Below are positions 3,309 through 12,728 of a stretch of DNA of 26,129 bases, one piece after another. A program made the translations under genes and the position numbers. The notes beneath the pieces were generated by a model. That model searched no databases. It was not told where the DNA came from and saw nothing but the letters and a program-made list of their open reading frames with translations. The stretch comes from a virus. The DNA lies in the IMG/VR virus record IMGVR_UViG_3300030329_004245, positions 15,128-41,256 of that record, one strand, 5' to 3'. How positions within the stretch are numbered: the stretch's first letter is position 1; every line of letters starts with the position of its first letter.

Positions 3309-3591
3309 GGCATCTCCTTTTTTCGTTTTTGACCCCCACCCCCTTGGTGGGAGAATTTCAAATGAAATGCAGTTAATATGAAAATTTGGTTTTCTGATGA
3401 GGTTTGATTGAGCGAAATATCCGTCGAGGCGGGCACCCGCTACTGACATTTTAGTTTGAGGAACTGACCTCAAAAACAAGACCCCCCCCTCTTTTTTTGT
3501 AGATTTCAGTTACTAAAATTTTGAATTTTTTATTTTTTTTTGCATATCCGTACTTGCAGTCCGGCGGGGTTGGGGGCAGGGAGGGGAGTTG

Positions 3592-3668
3592 GTAGTTGGG
3601 GGCAGTTGTAGTTGCAGTTGTAGTTTGGGGCAGTTGCAGTTGGGGCAGTTGCAGTTGCAGTTGTAGTT
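3592..3668 (+). repeat. GCAGTT / GTAGTT hexamer tandem array
   Basis: Eleven copies of the hexamer G(C/T)AGTT. After one at 3592 they run in register at 3602, 3608, 3614 and 3620, then 3630 and 3636, then 3645, 3651, 3657 and 3663, the groups being separated by short G-runs. The same hexamer reappears in the other large non-coding region (7331-7345), with a related GCAGTA array at 7399-7422. The reading frame across it on the minus strand would give Q-L-Q-L low-complexity protein, which I regard as accidental. Confidence 0.85.
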
Positions 3669-3712
3669 GGGTATGAAGTGATCTGAAGCCTGGTCGCCGG
3701 TGAGCGTAGTAT

Positions 3713-3752
3713 TGAGAGGGTCTTACTTGGTTGTTTAAGTAAGACCCTCTCA
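3713..3752 (-). terminator. 16-bp hairpin after the 108-aa gene
   Basis: Arms 3713-3728 and 3737-3752 pair perfectly around an eight-base loop, 26 bases past the stop of the minus-strand gene ending at 3778. There is no T-run after it, so if it terminates transcription it is not a textbook intrinsic terminator. It may instead protect the 3' end of the message. Confidence 0.5.
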
Positions 3753-3777
3753 TGCGAGCCAGAGACCAAGCGAAGAT

Positions 3778-4726: not shown

Positions 4727-4870
4727 AGGACCTGAAATTCAGTCCCTCATAATCATCCTGCGAACGCTTCGACCACGGTGCCGGGACCAGCGTTCGACTC
4801 AGCTACAATTTCAGCATCCATCCTCCTTGGTTACACAAATCGTGCAGTTACTAAAACAGCATGGACGAGT

Positions 4871-4908
4871 AAAAAAAGGGAGCGCAGGGCATTAAGCCCC
4901 GCGCTCCC
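4871..4908 (-). terminator. intrinsic terminator after the 344-aa gene
   Basis: On the minus strand a stem of 8 bp (GGGAGCGC with GCGCTCCC), one mismatch and four more pairs closes a five-base loop, and is followed directly by seven T residues. It lies 15 bases beyond the stop at 4923. This is the clearest rho-independent terminator in the window and shows that the minus strand is the transcribed strand of this block. Confidence 0.9.
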
Positions 4909-4922
4909 AGTTGAGGGATGTT

Positions 4923-5957
4923 CTACGCTGCCGCTTGTCGCTCGGCTCGAATAATGGCAGTGCGGTCAGGAGCGTCGGGAAGCTCCTTCACATACTCTGG
5001 CGGGGCATAGGATGGGTCGGCGCCACGGAGATCCTCACGGCCCTCCATCCACTCCTCATACATTTCGGCAGTCTCCTTATGCACATCTTCGTTGCGTGCT
5101 CCTGAGTCCAACTGGACTATCTCAATCTTACGAGTTCCTGCGTAAGCAACGATGCTCCCGTCCTCAGCGACTTCGTGTTCATAGACGATGTTCCATGCCT
5201 CTGATTCACTCGCAGCTTGAACGAAGCTGGAATGCTGACGGTCGTTGGCATCGGCCCAGGTAACGCTAAAGGTTGGAAGAATTGCACGGTCGGTGAGCTT
5301 GCTAAGGGTCTCAGCGTCCCTTGTCAAATCAAAGGCCCCATCGTTTACACGGGCCAGTAGATTCATGCTTGCTGCCGCCTTGGTCTTGTAAAAGACTACG
5401 TAAGGCTTCTCATTGTATCGTTTGTTTGACGAGGCAAGCTCGATGGTTTTATTAGGATGCGCCTTGCTGACCAGCAATGCGTAATCCATAGCCTCTTTGA
5501 GGCTCGGGAAGGTTGTAACCTCCCGGTTGGTTGTATGGGATGCCTGATTGGCGGGCCAAGTCATTCGGCCTTTCTCGTAGCCTCGAATGGCAGTCATCCA
5601 AGTCTGGATGTTCTGAGGATTGTCAGGCTCCTTCGGACCTGACTGGGGGTAGGCTTTGGCGTTCTCTTCGAGGGCCGCCTGTGGACAGGCTAGCCACATG
5701 GCAACGAAGTAGCCAGTCGAGAAGCGTAAAGCAAACCACTTCTGACCTGTCTCGCGGCTGCGCTTCATGCACCGAGACATCGCGTTCTCCTTAGTCAAGG
5801 GCGTAACGCTCTTGCCCTCGGGCTTCAGAGTCGCAAGCAGTTCGCGCACACGCGCCTTCTCATCAAGCTGTTCCGGCCAAGTCATTGGCGGCACATTGCT
5901 GAGGTAAGGGTCGTGGTTGTTCACTGCGGCGTTCAGCTGCTGAGCAAATGCGGACAT
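4923..5957 (-). CDS. unknown early protein, 344 aa
   Basis: ATG at 5957 preceded by GGAGACTCAGCC inside a 53-nt repeated leader. The protein is soluble. It has an N-terminal part with P-M-T-W-P-E-Q-L near 24, a basic stretch at about 60-75 (R-C-M-K-R-S-R-E-T-G-Q-K-W-F-A-L-R-F), a middle alpha/beta-like part with S-L-K-E-A-M-D-Y-A near 150, and a C-terminal part with F-V-Q-A-A-S-E-S-E-A-W near 244, a pattern seen in small phage domains that modify or bind nucleic acid. I do not recognise the family. It is followed by an intrinsic terminator and is preceded by two small genes with similar leaders, so all three are probably expressed together. Confidence 0.7.
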   Translation of the reverse strand: MSAFAQQLNAAVNNHDPYLSNVPPMTWPEQLDEKARVRELLATLKPEGKSVTPLTKENAMSRCMKRSRETGQKWFALRFSTGYFVAMWLACPQAALEENAKAYPQSGPKEPDNPQNIQTWMTAIRGYEKGRMTWPANQASHTTNREVTTFPSLKEAMDYALLVSKAHPNKTIELASSNKRYNEKPYVVFYKTKAAASMNLLARVNDGAFDLTRDAETLSKLTDRAILPTFSVTWADANDRQHSSFVQAASESEAWNIVYEHEVAEDGSIVAYAGTRKIEIVQLDSGARNEDVHKETAEMYEEWMEGREDLRGADPSYAPPEYVKELPDAPDRTAIIRAERQAAA

Positions 5958-6007: not shown

Positions 6008-6251
6008 TTTTGAGCACATTGTGAACGGTCATCCACCGATTGGAGCGTCCTTGAGCGGCAATAGAGTCACAGTGATGCTCAAAGTAAGAGTCGTAGTAGA
6101 CGTCAATAGCATGGTCAAGTGCTAGATCTGCAAGATAGCGGTCGGGAAGGTCAACCTCATCAGGGGAGATGGGGTCGTATGGGGGGAAGCTGGCGTAACG
6201 CTTTGCTTCAAAGCGTCGCATGATCTGACGGGCCAGATCTTTACGAGTCAT
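6003..6251 (-). CDS. small hypothetical, 82 aa
   Basis: ATG at 6251 behind GGAGACTCAGCC in repeat copy B; the stop lies in repeat copy A. The product is acidic in the middle, with aromatic-rich segments (Y-A-S-F-P-P-Y-D-P-I and V-Y-Y-D-S-Y-F-E-H-H) and a likely helix at the N-terminus (R-K-D-L-A-R-Q-I-M-R-R-F-E). No family recognised. The identical junctions either side suggest it could be gained or lost as a cassette. Confidence 0.6.
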   Translation of the reverse strand: MTRKDLARQIMRRFEAKRYASFPPYDPISPDEVDLPDRYLADLALDHAIDVYYDSYFEHHCDSIAAQGRSNRWMTVHNVLKR

Positions 6252-6301: not shown

Positions 6302-6578
6302 GGGAGCTAGTGAGGAAGGCATTGTGCTTGCAATCCTCTGAGTGAATGGGCATCGCGCCCATCCCTTGGCACTCCTTGCAATACAGCCAATCACCAGCAC
6401 CCTCGGGGACTACTACGAGGTAGTCAGTGTAGAGCTTCAGGAGTTTCATATCGGCATCAATGCCAGCATGGAGATGAGACAAGTCATCACCCTCTGGCGC
6501 TACGCTGCAAGCACGGTCAGCGTCAGCAAGGCTGGCGCAGACATTGCCTAATGCATCAATGATGAAAGCATCATTCAT
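6297..6578 (-). CDS. small protein with cysteine cluster, 93 aa
   Basis: ATG at 6578 five bases after AAGGGA. The C-terminal third carries C-K-E-C and a later C with neighbouring histidines (H-S-E-D-C-K-H) between about residues 67 and 85, a possible small zinc-binding ribbon. The N-terminal two thirds look helical (A-L-G-N-V-C-A-S-L-A-D-A-D-R-A-C). First gene of the minus-strand block; a putative promoter lies at 6629-6654. Function not recognised. Confidence 0.6.
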   Translation of the reverse strand: MNDAFIIDALGNVCASLADADRACSVAPEGDDLSHLHAGIDADMKLLKLYTDYLVVVPEGAGDWLYCKECQGMGAMPIHSEDCKHNAFLTSSR

Positions 6579-6628
6579 GACAAATCCCTTCGTTGCACTG
6601 CGTTAACATCCTCGCTCTCTCTGTTCGC

Positions 6629-6654
6629 ATTCTAAAAGTAGGAAAGGCTGTCAA
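6629..6654 (-). promoter_or_regulatory. possible promoter for the minus-strand block
   Basis: On the minus strand TTGACA (6649-6654) is followed by TAGAAT (6629-6634). Both hexamers are close to sigma-70 consensus and lie 50-75 bases upstream of the first gene, but the spacer is only 14 bases instead of 16-18, so activity is doubtful without a helper protein. Confidence 0.3.
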
Positions 6655-6969
6655 GGAGAATCTCATGGGGGCATAAGGAAGGATCCATGAAGTCACAAAT
6701 TGGAGCCACCATGAACCAGGCTTTCGCGGGGCTGTTCATACCGCGAAACAGGAATGGTGTGAGCGACCCGTCGAAAGACGGTAGGCTCGCGTAGTTGCGA
6801 GCCTAAATTTACAGGGTGACGCTGTTGCACTATGTCACCCTGTGGACTTTATGGAAGGTTCCCTTGTGACCCCATGCTGTGTGAGATTGTCCTTTACTGC
6901 CGTAAGTTTGACAATCAGGCGTGACAGCGCTGTTTGCTGGCGCGGCTGTTGAACCGCAATAGCAGTGGG

Positions 6970-7031
6970 CATTTGTCTAGCCCGTTGTGCAACAACGCTT
7001 TACCCGTTGCACAACAGGTAACGGACAAATG
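6970..7031. repeat. nested inverted repeat
   Basis: Outer arms CATTTGTC and GACAAATG (8 bp) and inner arms GTTGTGCAAC and GTTGCACAAC (10 bp), both perfect, around a 12-base centre. Best read as a long helix of the RNA candidate; a recombinase or protein-binding site of the same symmetry is the alternative. The right outer arm belongs to the 11-mer ACGGACAAATG, which recurs exactly 180 bases later at 7201. Confidence 0.8.
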
Positions 7032-7330
7032 ACCGCGTCGCGGTATTCACAGATCAAGCGAAACAGAGAGAGAGAGAAAACAGAGCCAATGCGCTACACG
7101 CAACAAGCGTGACCAAGGCGAGACTTCGCCTGCTGTTAGGGCGCGCTTGTTGAAAGCAGACAACAGACGGCTCCCCTGCATTTGGCCGGTCGCAGTCCAG
7201 ACGGACAAATGCCATCATTGTGTGAGCGCGAGAAGTCGCGCCACAATAATTGCAGTTTGGTGATGTTCTGGTTTATGCGAGTATTGCGAGCAGATACACG
7301 ATGGGAGACGTCTGAGGTAATGACAACCTT

Positions 7331-7345
7331 GCAGTTGCAGTTGCT
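7331..7345 (+). repeat. short GCAGTT repeat
   Basis: Two and a half copies of the hexamer found in the 3592-3668 array, inside the left side of the 7319-7374 hairpin. Confidence 0.7.
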
Positions 7346-7398
7346 CACGCGGCGGGACGTTCCCGCTTGTCATTGGCTCAGATGGCGACCTGGCTGTT

Positions 7399-7422
7399 GC
7401 AGTAGCAGTAGCAGTAGCAGTG
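7399..7422 (+). repeat. GCAGTA tandem repeat
   Basis: Four in-register hexamers, three GCAGTA and a final GCAGTG, flanked on both sides by GGCTGTT. It differs by one base from the GCAGTT unit used elsewhere in the window. Confidence 0.85.
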
Positions 7423-7584
7423 GCTGTTAGGGGTGGGGGTCTACGCTAGAGAAGTTGACGAACTAGAGTGTCTCCTGTATCTCTGGTAGACGAGGGGTAG
7501 ATGTGGGGTGAGAGTGATGCGCCTTGAGGAACACCGAAGGTATTCCGATTAAGCATCACGAGATGGGGGGATTGAAGGCCCCCC

Positions 7585-7622
7585 CTAGGGTCGCTTCCCC
7601 CTCAAGGGGGTATCGGCCCTAG
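7585..7622. other. strong hairpin upstream of the 190-aa gene
   Basis: Nine pairs (7585-7593 with 7614-7622, one wobble), a 3x3 internal loop and five G-C pairs with a four-base loop. It directly follows a G6/C7 hairpin at 7565-7585. No T-run follows. Either the 3' end structure of the upstream RNA or the 5' leader of the 190-aa gene. Confidence 0.65.
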
Positions 7623-7674
7623 TATAAAGCCCTCTCATACATAAAATTACTGAAATATCTCACTGGAGGATGTT

Positions 7675-8247
7675 ATGTCTAAGGGACCATCGAGCAAGTC
7701 TGATTTAATAGTGGATCAGCGTCAGTTACTTGCTGGTATTCGTGAGTATTTCCAGACTCCGGCAGAGATGCGCGGTAACGTTCAGAGCATGAAGTCTTTA
7801 GCGGAGCATCTGGGCTGCGGGGTTCAGGATTTACATAGGGCGATGAGTCTGAATCCTGAGATGGGCAGCGACATATTACAGGGTGTGGCATTAGCTGGCG
7901 CGGTTCAGATACCTCGTGTTCTGTATAAGCTGATGGAGGCGATAGAGGCGGGCAGTATTAAGGCAGCGGAGATCTACCTGGACTTCATTCGTAAGACGAT
8001 TCAGGATGAGCGTTTGATGCAGATGTCCAGCAAGGCATCTGAGGATCTGACCAAGGTGCTGGGGAATGTAGGTACTCAGGTGGATATGTTATTACAGGCG
8101 GCAGAGCAATCGACTCCCGAGGAAGCTCGTTCTCGTCTGAACTCTGTCGTAGCTCATTCGCCGGATGGTTTAAGAGCGCGTACTACTGTTGCTTTGGAAG
8201 CTGATCGTACTATTCCAAAGGCAGAAGTAATTGAGGATGAGACATGA
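7675..8247 (+). CDS. putative terminase small subunit, 190 aa
   Basis: ATG at 7675, five bases after GGAGGA. A helix-turn-helix-like part at about 37-60 (M-K-S-L-A-E-H-L-G-C-G-V-Q-D-L-H-R-A) is followed by a helical part with V-L-Y-K-L-M-E-A-I-E-A-G-S-I-K-A-A-E-I-Y-L near 84-106. That HTH plus G-x-x-K-A-A-x-x-Y-L layout is typical of small terminases, which recognise the packaging site and hand DNA to the large subunit. The C-terminus is acidic (A-E-V-I-E-D-E-T). Assignment is by pattern and late-gene context; a different DNA-binding protein remains possible. It opens the plus-strand late genes but is separated from the large terminase by an inverted cassette. Confidence 0.55.
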   Translation: MSKGPSSKSDLIVDQRQLLAGIREYFQTPAEMRGNVQSMKSLAEHLGCGVQDLHRAMSLNPEMGSDILQGVALAGAVQIPRVLYKLMEAIEAGSIKAAEIYLDFIRKTIQDERLMQMSSKASEDLTKVLGNVGTQVDMLLQAAEQSTPEEARSRLNSVVAHSPDGLRARTTVALEADRTIPKAEVIEDET

Positions 8248-10775: not shown

Positions 10776-11058
10776 CGAGACTATCTATCGGTGGCTTAAT
10801 AAATCCTCGGAGGCAAGAAAAAGCCTTCGGGGATCTTTTGTATTTCCCGCAGACCGAATCTGGTACCTATATTTCCGAATGAGGCATCGTAGGGCAGGCG
10901 CACGGATAAAGTATCCTGATCTGACTAAGCTCATTGAAGACCAAGGCAAGCTCTGTGACTTCGACATCACCCCCAGAATTAAATGGGACAGGGGAAGAAG
11001 ACCTGTTTCCCAAGCTCGCCAAACTTGCGACGATGTTGAAGGAGAAGCCTTGGCTTAA
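10735..11058 (+). CDS. HTH-containing hypothetical, 107 aa
   Basis: ATG 10735 lies within the end of the nuclease gene (41-base overlap) and has only a weak site; an in-frame TTG at 10699 is upstream. The first 25 residues (A-I-Q-D-R-L-K-L-D-N-E-T-I-Y-R-W-L) look like a helix-turn-helix, followed by a basic segment (R-M-R-H-R-R-A-G-A-R-I). Its position directly before the large terminase makes it an alternative candidate for the small terminase. It overlaps the terminase start region by about 100 bases, so one of the two boundaries is probably off. Confidence 0.5.
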   Translation: MTAGAIQDRLKLDNETIYRWLNKSSEARKSLRGSFVFPADRIWYLYFRMRHRRAGARIKYPDLTKLIEDQGKLCDFDITPRIKWDRGRRPVSQARQTCDDVEGEALA

Positions 11059-11989
11059 AGAGGTCTTCCAAGACACTCAACCAGAAGCATATGAGCAGGT
11101 TCTTCAGCTAGCAGCCTGTCCGTTTTTTCAATGGAGTCCATTTGGATACACCATTGACGATAATCCCTGCCAATACGGATGGCTTGAGGAATGGAGCCAT
11201 CAATCCTGGGCTGTATGTGGAAATCGGACCGGGAAAACCGAGTCCACTTGGATGAAGTTTTACGCATCCATGATGGGGGTTGATGCACTCACCAAGCAGC
11301 CGATTCCCAAAGATCGCTTTAAGGAGGATCATGTTAACGGATGGATTATTTCAGATACAGAAGACACGTCCATTGACATCATCCAGCGAACACTTGTAAG
11401 GGAGGTGCTTGGCGACGATGAAACAGGATTTCTCTGGAACTTCGTGGACGATTCCTGCCAGTGGACAGAAGCTGGTGGATGGAAAAATAGCCGCTTTGCC
11501 ACCACCAACGGAAGTAGAGTTACCTTCAAATTTTCCACGCAGAAGCGGAAGACTTTTCAAGGGACTTCGCGTAACATTATTTGGGCTGATGAAGAACAGC
11601 CCAAAGACATCATGGAAGAATCTCGTGCTCGTGTTGCAGATTGCGATGGATACCTTTGGGGCACTCTTACTCCTGTTTATGAACGGCTCAGAGGAATACC
11701 GTGGATCTATCACGATGTCTATTTATCGCGAGAAGAGAAGGGGATCCCATTCCACAACTGGAGCCTCCTACACAACCCGCACATTTCAGATGATGTCAAA
11801 GCCCGATTGACGCGGGAGTGGGATGAGGATTCCAGGGAAGTCCGTATTCATGGCATGTTTGTTCCAATGGGCATCCAGTTAGCCTTCCCGATGTCGATGG
11901 TCCGAACTATGCGCGATGGGGTGCGGAAAGGTGAGTCTGCCCACTTACGATTCAATGAGGAAGGAATCGTAGAACGTGCCGTCATTTAG
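10955..11989 (+). CDS. terL: terminase large subunit, ATPase part
   Basis: Contains the packaging-motor ATPase domain: Walker A C-G-N-R-T-G-K-T-E (about 88-96), Walker B N-I-I-W-A-D-E-E (207-214) and the coupling motif G-T-L-T-P (236-240). Start uncertain: GTG 10955 has AAGG at eight bases; TTG 10934 and ATG 11033 are alternatives. The frame stops at TAG 11987-11989, exactly where a normal large terminase continues into its nuclease domain; that domain is present in the +1 frame from 11976. Deleting one T from the run before the stop would fuse both. So this is either a true two-gene terminase, a programmed frameshift, a mutation or a base error. Confidence 0.9.
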   Translation: MTSTSPPELNGTGEEDLFPKLAKLATMLKEKPWLKEVFQDTQPEAYEQVLQLAACPFFQWSPFGYTIDDNPCQYGWLEEWSHQSWAVCGNRTGKTESTWMKFYASMMGVDALTKQPIPKDRFKEDHVNGWIISDTEDTSIDIIQRTLVREVLGDDETGFLWNFVDDSCQWTEAGGWKNSRFATTNGSRVTFKFSTQKRKTFQGTSRNIIWADEEQPKDIMEESRARVADCDGYLWGTLTPVYERLRGIPWIYHDVYLSREEKGIPFHNWSLLHNPHISDDVKARLTREWDEDSREVRIHGMFVPMGIQLAFPMSMVRTMRDGVRKGESAHLRFNEEGIVERAVI

Positions 11990-12728
11990 GCTTACAATCT
12001 GGGAAGATCCTATCCCTGGCGATGCGTACGCCATAGGGGGCGATCCTTCAGAAGGGCTGGCTCACGGTGATGATTCATGCGGGCAGGTTATCCACTGCCC
12101 TACCGGCAATCAAGTCGCAGAGCTACAGGGAAAGATTGAGCCATTTTCCTTCGCAGACCAGCTGTTCACTCTCGGTCACTACTACAACGAGGCGCTGATC
12201 GGCGTGGAGAACAATAAGGACGGTGGCGCAAATAAGGTGCTGTTCGAGCTAGGATATAAGAATCTTTATTTCGAGATGAAAGAAACCGGCTTGCCGTATC
12301 AGAAGCCGACCGCCAAGCTCGGCTATAATGTGAACTCGCGCACCCGCGCAATGCTTGTAGCCCAGACGCGGAAGTTCCTTTCCGATGGCTCAACTTCTGT
12401 TGTGTCTCTGCATCTAATCAGTCAGTTTGAAACCTTTGCTCTAGAGAGCGATAAGTTCCAGGCGATTGAGAATGCACACGACGATTTAGTAATGTCCTAT
12501 CTCATTGCGTGTGAGATGATGCGCGTTCAGTTGATGCGAACTGAGACTTCGCAAAATCGACTGAATCCGATGTGGAACGGAGATGAAGTTAGCGAACCAG
12601 GCATGGAGGATTTCGAGGTTGCAGAAAACCAAACTCGATCTCAGAAGCTCATTGACAAACACACTAAAGGATCTTACGAGCAAGACATCGTTGATGCGTC
12701 AACGGTGGGCAATCTCGCCGGATTCTAG
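11976..12728 (+). CDS. terminase large subunit, nuclease part
   Basis: A 250-aa RNase H-fold nuclease domain of a large terminase, in the +1 frame relative to the ATPase gene and overlapping it by 14 bases. Visible acidic triad: D23 in A-I-G-G-D-P-S-E-G, E78 in I-G-V-E-N-N-K-D-G-G, and D169/D170 in A-H-D-D-L-V-M-S. The opening L-T-I-W-E-D-P-I-P-G is the usual junction that joins ATPase to nuclease in a single chain. A GTG start at 11976 has AGGAAGGA about ten bases upstream, so separate translation is possible. Confidence 0.9.
   Translation: MPSFRLTIWEDPIPGDAYAIGGDPSEGLAHGDDSCGQVIHCPTGNQVAELQGKIEPFSFADQLFTLGHYYNEALIGVENNKDGGANKVLFELGYKNLYFEMKETGLPYQKPTAKLGYNVNSRTRAMLVAQTRKFLSDGSTSVVSLHLISQFETFALESDKFQAIENAHDDLVMSYLIACEMMRVQLMRTETSQNRLNPMWNGDEVSEPGMEDFEVAENQTRSQKLIDKHTKGSYEQDIVDASTVGNLAGF

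Follow-up and report, generated by a model that had tools for sequence, protein, structure and literature searches.

The described RNAs that invite the closest comparison with the element reported here are GOLLD and ROOL, which assemble RNA-only cages by loop contacts (PMC12286853). GOLLD is a non-coding, multi-stem phage RNA of ~0.8-1 kb with unknown function (PMC12286853), and the present element, at ~930 bases, resembles it in these respects. However, GOLLD is often found near tRNA genes or tRNA islands, whereas the element lies beside a terS-like gene and a tRNA search of the window (the whole 26,129-nt stretch analyzed) found none; it also lacks a match to the GOLLD covariance model and carries repeated pyrimidine loops. 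ROOL is likewise a large, ornate RNA of phages and prophages, but the element does not match its covariance model either and is not near tRNAs. ROOL is nearer 0.6 kb, a different size class from the 0.93-1.25 kb of the element and its relatives. At the Rfam gathering threshold, the window and eight related loci gave no match to GOLLD, ROOL, OLE, HEARO or other large RNAs, and permissive thresholds returned none at E up to 5 (window, L018) or at E up to 1 (L020). An earlier, sequence-only reading of this DNA had been unable to match the region to GOLLD or ROOL and had suggested that it may be new, a view that the empty Rfam scans support.

Two further systems offer partial parallels. Protein-sequestering RNAs of the CsrB/RsmZ type comprise many hairpins in which one loop motif is repeated on unrelated stems. 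In the element, too, a single loop motif recurs on several hairpins with unrelated stems, albeit a motif recognized post hoc, but its loops are GCUNUU/GUCUUU-like and lack GGA, it is much larger, and its partner is unknown. The phi29 pRNA, of ~170 nt, serves phages without TerS. It is a structured phage RNA, as the element probably is, and the element adjoins a packaging gene; however, a terS-like gene is present here and no packaging link has been shown. The comparison with packaging RNAs drawn in the sequence-only reading is still speculation, as the only link is the location beside terS, which is on the opposite strand in most relatives.

The virus record from which the window derives is 41,256 bases long, and the element occupies window positions 6692-7622. 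Family matches indicate a phage with a P22-like portal, a major head protein and an SSB, and another of its proteins has relatives among phage DNA repair/recombinase families. The (early) genes on the left side of the element are oriented leftward, while the terS-like gene and structural genes to its right are oriented rightward. Because the terS-like gene has no Pfam or PHROG match, its designation as a small terminase rests on position and context only. The GC skew changes sign in the part of the window that contains the element, and searches for sigma-70 promoters and terminators found none beyond chance. Further to the right, TerL is encoded in two overlapping frames, 10934-11989 (ATPase part) and 11976-12728 (nuclease part), with a 14-nt overlap; since the same split is retained in L006, L007 and L008, it is no sequencing error but either a split gene that has been conserved or a programmed frameshift. 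Separately, positions 3570-3670 hold G-rich hexamer repeats of the GCAGTTGTAGTT type, after which comes a strong hairpin (~3715-3755), and this tract resembles the GCAGTA/GCTGTT repeats at 7393-7428 within the element.

The main components of the element and its neighbor are as follows.

6692-7622, + strand: whole structured non-coding element, candidate giant RNA (fold z -8.8; no gene; no Rfam match; 98.1% identity to L006 without indels).
6692-6870, + strand: 5′ domain closed by a predicted helix P1 (6692-6698 GTCACAA with 6864-6870 TTGTGAC), in the same position as the covarying P1 of L013, L014, L018 and L020.
6722-6748, + strand: perfect 8-bp hairpin with loop GGCUGUUCAUA, from the inverted-repeat search; the MFE structure favors a competing pairing.
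6768-6781, + strand: CCGUC-GAAA-GACGG tetraloop hairpin, seen in the sequence; it abuts the next stem.
6782-6805, + strand: perfect 9-bp hairpin with loop GUAGUU, from the inverted-repeat search.
6811-6843, + strand: perfect 10-bp hairpin with 13-nt loop GCUGUUGCACUAU, a loop type common to L014, L018 and L020.
6967-7034, + strand: arm GGGCATTTGTC / GACAAATGACC around a 10-bp hairpin at 6984-7015, from inverted repeats; 6980 G to A turns a G-U into an A-U pair in L006.
7101-7152, + strand: stem 7101-7109/7144-7152 with inner hairpin 7117-7128, from inverted repeats and the strand-neutral helix count.
7178-7212, + strand: stem GCATTTGGCCG / CGGACAAATGC, whose arms may alternatively pair with 6968 or 7024.
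7311-7382, + strand: stem 7311-7326/7367-7382 around hairpin 7352-7366; 7371 C to T retains pairing as G-U.
7514-7559, + strand: stem GTGATGC / GCATCAC with an inner GGAA..TTCC hairpin, from the fold and the helix count.
7565-7622, + strand: 3′ G/C-rich hairpins, GGGGGG..CCCCCC and CTAGGGTCG..CCCTAG; similar CCCCC/GGGGG elements occur at the terS end in relatives.
6731-7428, + strand: seven copies of GCTGTT (6731, 6821, 6929, 6945, 7132, 7393, 7423), the top enriched hexamer (expected 0.39).
7675-8247, + strand: terS-like gene, 190 aa, adjoining the element; many of the fetched loci have a related gene, among them the five lineages in which a similar structured element occurs.

The region 6692-7622 is non-coding, strongly structured and conserved. 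The sequence-only reading had described a gene-free interval of ~0.9 kb at 6707-7622 that is dense in perfect stems; this held, with the 5′ limit better placed at ~6692, where the closing helix 6692-6698/6864-6870 begins. The GAAA tetraloop that it noted on the plus strand (CCGTC-GAAA-GACGG, 6768-6781) and the exactly abutting stems at 6781/6782, 7031/7032 and 7366/7367 were also confirmed, all three as described. A reading frame conserved through the region, which that reading had named as grounds for refutation, was not found: there is no credible gene within 6692-7622, and no frame is conserved among related phages. The longest frames, 7182-7430 (+) and 7136-7348 (-), are not conserved as protein, and all four differences from L006 in the plus-strand frame are non-synonymous. 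Coding potential was considered and rejected, as cross-lineage frame matches fall on both strands and in several frames, in the manner that DNA conservation predicts. A short frame of 35 aa (6687-6794) has a good Shine-Dalgarno sequence and extends across the 5′ end of the element; it could be either a leader peptide or a chance occurrence.

The predicted MFE of positions 6690-7640 is -404.6 kcal/mol, as compared with -334.7 ± 7.9 for dinucleotide shuffles (z -8.8 on the plus strand), and the complementary strand gives a z of -7.3 against shuffles of the same kind. The energy excess of the element, -57.6 kcal/mol, is the largest among 28 tiled windows of 900 nt, the next being -47.9, although at this window size a few coding windows match its z. 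There are 22 inverted repeats within 6500-7800, including those at 6722-6748, 6782-6805, 6811-6843, 6984-7015, 7101-7152, 7311-7382 and 7585-7622. Strand-neutral helices with a score of at least 9 number 35 in six such regions taken together (the element and those of the five lineages described below), versus four in shuffles, an approximately ninefold excess. As a separate observation, two CATTTG-type and two CAAATG-type arms (6968-6977, 7024-7034, 7178-7188 and 7202-7213) permit alternative pairings and, conceivably, a conformational switch.

Nearly the same phage is present on two other contigs (L002, L003/L006). The element aligns with that of L006 over 842 nt at 98.1% identity and with zero indels, whereas the third codon positions of neighboring genes are only 79-96% identical; the adjacent gene is well conserved too, however, and so the conservation of the element may be partly regional. 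Ten of the 16 differences from L006 lie at unpaired positions of the predicted fold. Two substitutions keep pairing via G-U on the plus strand (6980 G to A; 7371 C to T), and a third, 7615 G to A, does not. Searches of the fetched loci with the window's element (nhmmer and blastn) matched only the near-identical L002, L003 and L006. Two of these contigs (L002, positions 1-30; L003, positions 1-20) begin in or just before the hairpin at 6782-6805, and the first bases of L002 are a short sequence that differs; this strong inverted repeat is probably a point at which assembly breaks.

More distant relatives were gathered with a profile of the nuclease part of TerL, yielding 48 loci, in many of which tblastn located terS-like genes. 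In five further distinct lineages (L013, equivalent to L061; L014; L018, equivalent to L055; L020; and L035, equivalent to L036), the slot between the leftward early genes and the terS-like gene is occupied by ~1-1.25 kb of structured non-coding DNA, with plus-strand fold z-scores of -4.0, -6.7, -8.8, -11.5 and -10.3, respectively. The elements of L013, L014, L018 and L020 are homologous in sequence. The window's element has no detectable sequence match to this group, and a covariance model built from the 5′ domain of the four relatives recovered its founders and neither the window nor L035, at E up to 5. What the window shares with the group is position between the leftward early genes and the terS-like gene, orientation relative to TerL, the loop type, the G/C-rich hairpins at the terS end and the enrichment of GCUGUU. 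A long-range closing helix predicted from the window's own sequence (6692-6698/6864-6870), together with a CCCUUG element, may be a further link. Because the covariance model misses the window, the case for its membership is built on where the element lies, how it is oriented, its loop type and its general architecture; that it belongs to the same family is likely, an inference that remains unproven. If the window and the four relatives do share an ancestor, their sequences have diverged beyond detection here.

Broader searches were largely negative. No DNA similarity to the element was found in 50,697 phage records, and no isolated phage with a similar element was found; a TerS scan with the widest alignment returned no further relatives of the window's type, and viral contigs scanned twice for RNA patterns gave a single addition, L061, which is 99.9% identical to L013. 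The 15 loci recovered by a TerL scan of genome contigs were all remote relatives (37% identity at best), and therefore no host can be assigned. Two additional loci are mentioned as observations in their own right. In L039, the same place (4868-5440) holds only ~570 nt that are weakly structured (z -2.9); its terS-like protein is the closest to that of the window outside the near-identical relatives, and hairpins of the CCCCCCTAGGGGGCGGTTCCCCCC type precede terS in both. In L014, positions 6020-6215 contain two near-identical copies of GTCTTTATAATATTTCCCTTCC within the element and several TATAAT boxes, which may be internal promoters or repeats.

Evidence for a selected structure comes from L013, L014, L018 and L020, in which P1 (UUGUCAAGGG with CCCUUGACAA) closes a 5′ domain containing a long rod. 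RNAalifold predicts 28 pairs in this domain, of which 12 show compensatory, two-sided changes; shuffles of the 3′ letters give 4.0 ± 1.6 (0 of 500 reach 12) and slid versions of the structure give 0 to 5, with the qualification that one alignment supplied both the structure and the covariation count, which biases the comparison with the slid versions in its favor. Between L018 and L014, both helices of the second hairpin are altered while the loop GAC-A-AGGA is retained. The tip of the first rod reads GCUUCUUCUGUUU in L013, GCUGUUCG in L020 and GUCUUUUU in L018, each on a different stem; L013 and L020 have a common flanking rod whose terminal stems and loops differ (13 nt of GCUUCUUCUGUUU versus 8 nt of GCUGUUCG). 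Taken together, the covariation, the kept loop and the exchanged tips are strong evidence that the structure in the relatives is under selection. Covariation in homologues was one of the checks proposed by the sequence-only reading, and compensatory changes were found in these four relatives, to whose family the window is assigned by inference. Its broader suggestion of a giant structured RNA is supported by the fold excess, by the structured regions in the same place and by these changes, in the absence of transcript data. It is thereby shown that structured elements recur at a conserved position and that those of four relatives covary.

The strand from which such an RNA would be read is less certain. 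The terS gene is on the strand opposite to the element in L013, L014, L018, L020 and L035, and on the same strand in the window. A simple terS leader is ruled out, because terS flips in this way while the orientation of the element with respect to TerL stays the same. P1 includes G-U pairs and no A-C pairs, the alifold energy is -23.5 on the plus strand versus -19.2 on the minus strand, and strand-neutral helices contain five G-U versus one A-C. Isolated mismatches, by contrast, show G-U and A-C equally and hence no strand preference, and the fold z-scores are alike on both strands. With strand evidence this modest and no transcript data, transcription from the plus strand is inferred with moderate confidence.

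In the relatives, unrelated hairpin stems are capped by short loops rich in pyrimidines (GCUGUU, GUCUUUUU, GCUUCUUCUGUUU), and the loop is swapped while the supporting rod is kept. The loops of six perfect hairpins in L020 are GCUGUUCG, GCUUUUUCUUUUU, GCUUUUUCUUUAU, GCUUCUGCUUCUU, GCUGUUGCUGUUU and GCUUCUUCUUUUU, and those of L014 and L018 include GUCUUUUU, GUCUUUGUCUUUU and GCUUUUGCUGUU. Overall, loops with the motif occur in 16 of the 32 perfect hairpins in the six regions, and in 12 of 266 in the remainder of these contigs (p 8e-11), although the motif was defined only after inspection of these sequences. The signal is strong in L020, L014 and L018; within the window, three of five perfect hairpins carry such loops (GGCUGUUCAUA, GUAGUU and GCUGUUGCACUAU), and none was seen among the perfect hairpins of L035. 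In the window's global MFE structure, only one of the seven GCUGUU copies is held in a hairpin loop. Complements of the loops are somewhat over-represented in L018 (14 observed versus 7.5 expected), L020 (20 versus 8.5) and the window (10 versus 5), but are absent in L013 and show no excess in L014; intramolecular kissing of loops was rejected as a universal role on these grounds. A consistent loop target in the phage genomes was also sought and none was found, and thus pairing is disfavored as the general mode of loop action.

Overall, it is very likely that 6692-7622 is a selected large structured RNA element, with its transcription and strand inferred in the absence of expression data. It would be transcribed rightward, next to the terS-like gene where the leftward early genes meet the rightward late ones, as a large non-coding RNA whose 5′ domain forms a multi-hairpin arm shut by the long-range helix P1. 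Its stable hairpins would present short, mostly pyrimidine loops that repeat a GCUNUU-like motif on unrelated stems. That one class of loop recurs on stems that are unrelated and exchangeable points to a single partner, bound multivalently, that recognizes short pyrimidine-rich single strands. The likeliest mode of action is therefore that of a multivalent scaffold or decoy, in which the stems would act as spacers and handles while multiple copies of the partner are held by the repeated single-stranded loops. By analogy with CsrB-type RNAs and their GGA loops, this partner might be a nucleic-acid-binding protein of the phage or host, although no such protein has been identified. Family membership of the window, transcription, strand, loop binding and partner are all inferred in this model, and it could as readily prove wrong as right.

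Among the alternatives, the main rival, and a possible one, is a giant ornate RNA that self-assembles into an RNA-only multimer (nanocage) like GOLLD and ROOL, with its loops making contacts between copies. In size, stem density, occurrence in phages and terminal loops the element resembles GOLLD and ROOL (PMC12286853), which is in favor of this rival, as is the modest over-representation of loop complements within L018, L020 and the window. Against it are the lack of an Rfam match to GOLLD, ROOL or OLE, and loops that are pyrimidine-rich and not self-complementary, with no complements in L013 and no excess in L014.

A DNA-level element is unlikely. Under this explanation, the region would be a pac site or replication origin whose DNA hairpins and GCTGTT/GTCTTT boxes bind TerS or a primase/initiator. 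The location adjoining terS at the early/late divergence, the sign change in GC skew, the short repeated boxes and stems that are nearly as good on the minus strand are consistent with such a role. However, helix covariation, conserved internal loops and the presence in P1 of G-U but not A-C pairs argue against it, as do a length of ~1 kb, which is long for a pac site, and the placement of the repeats in the loops of unrelated stems.

Less plausible still, and very unlikely, is a very long structured leader or cis-regulatory region (a 5′ UTR with switching structures) of the terS or late transcript. In the window, the element lies directly 5′ of terS and in the same orientation, no terminator separates the two, and the alternative pairings among 6968, 7024, 7178 and 7202 would suit a switch, but terS is opposite in L013, L014, L018, L020 and L035, where the same element would be antisense. 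Finally, chance folding of a GC-rich spacer or decayed-gene remnant, for which it can be said that some coding windows of the same size reach a similar z, is all but excluded by the largest energy excess among 28 windows, the ninefold helix excess, the conservation and the covariation in four relatives.

Returning to the preferred reading of a selected structured RNA, the element likely represents a new family of large or giant phage RNA from a clade of uncultivated phages that encode a P22-like portal; its function is unknown and its transcription is inferred. A bolder version, which we hold only tentatively and would not favor over its denial, is that an undescribed family of ~1-kb phage RNAs resides beside the terS-like gene across divergent lineages and works by modular display, its interchangeable terminal hairpins carrying the same class of hexamer-repeat pyrimidine loops and capturing many copies of a partner during infection. 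Few giant ornate phage RNAs are known, GOLLD and ROOL among them, and to our knowledge neither has an established function. The present element would add a new genomic setting for such RNAs, the packaging-gene junction of uncultivated phages, and its repeated, exchangeable loop motif leads to a specific hypothesis of binding that is open to in vitro testing.
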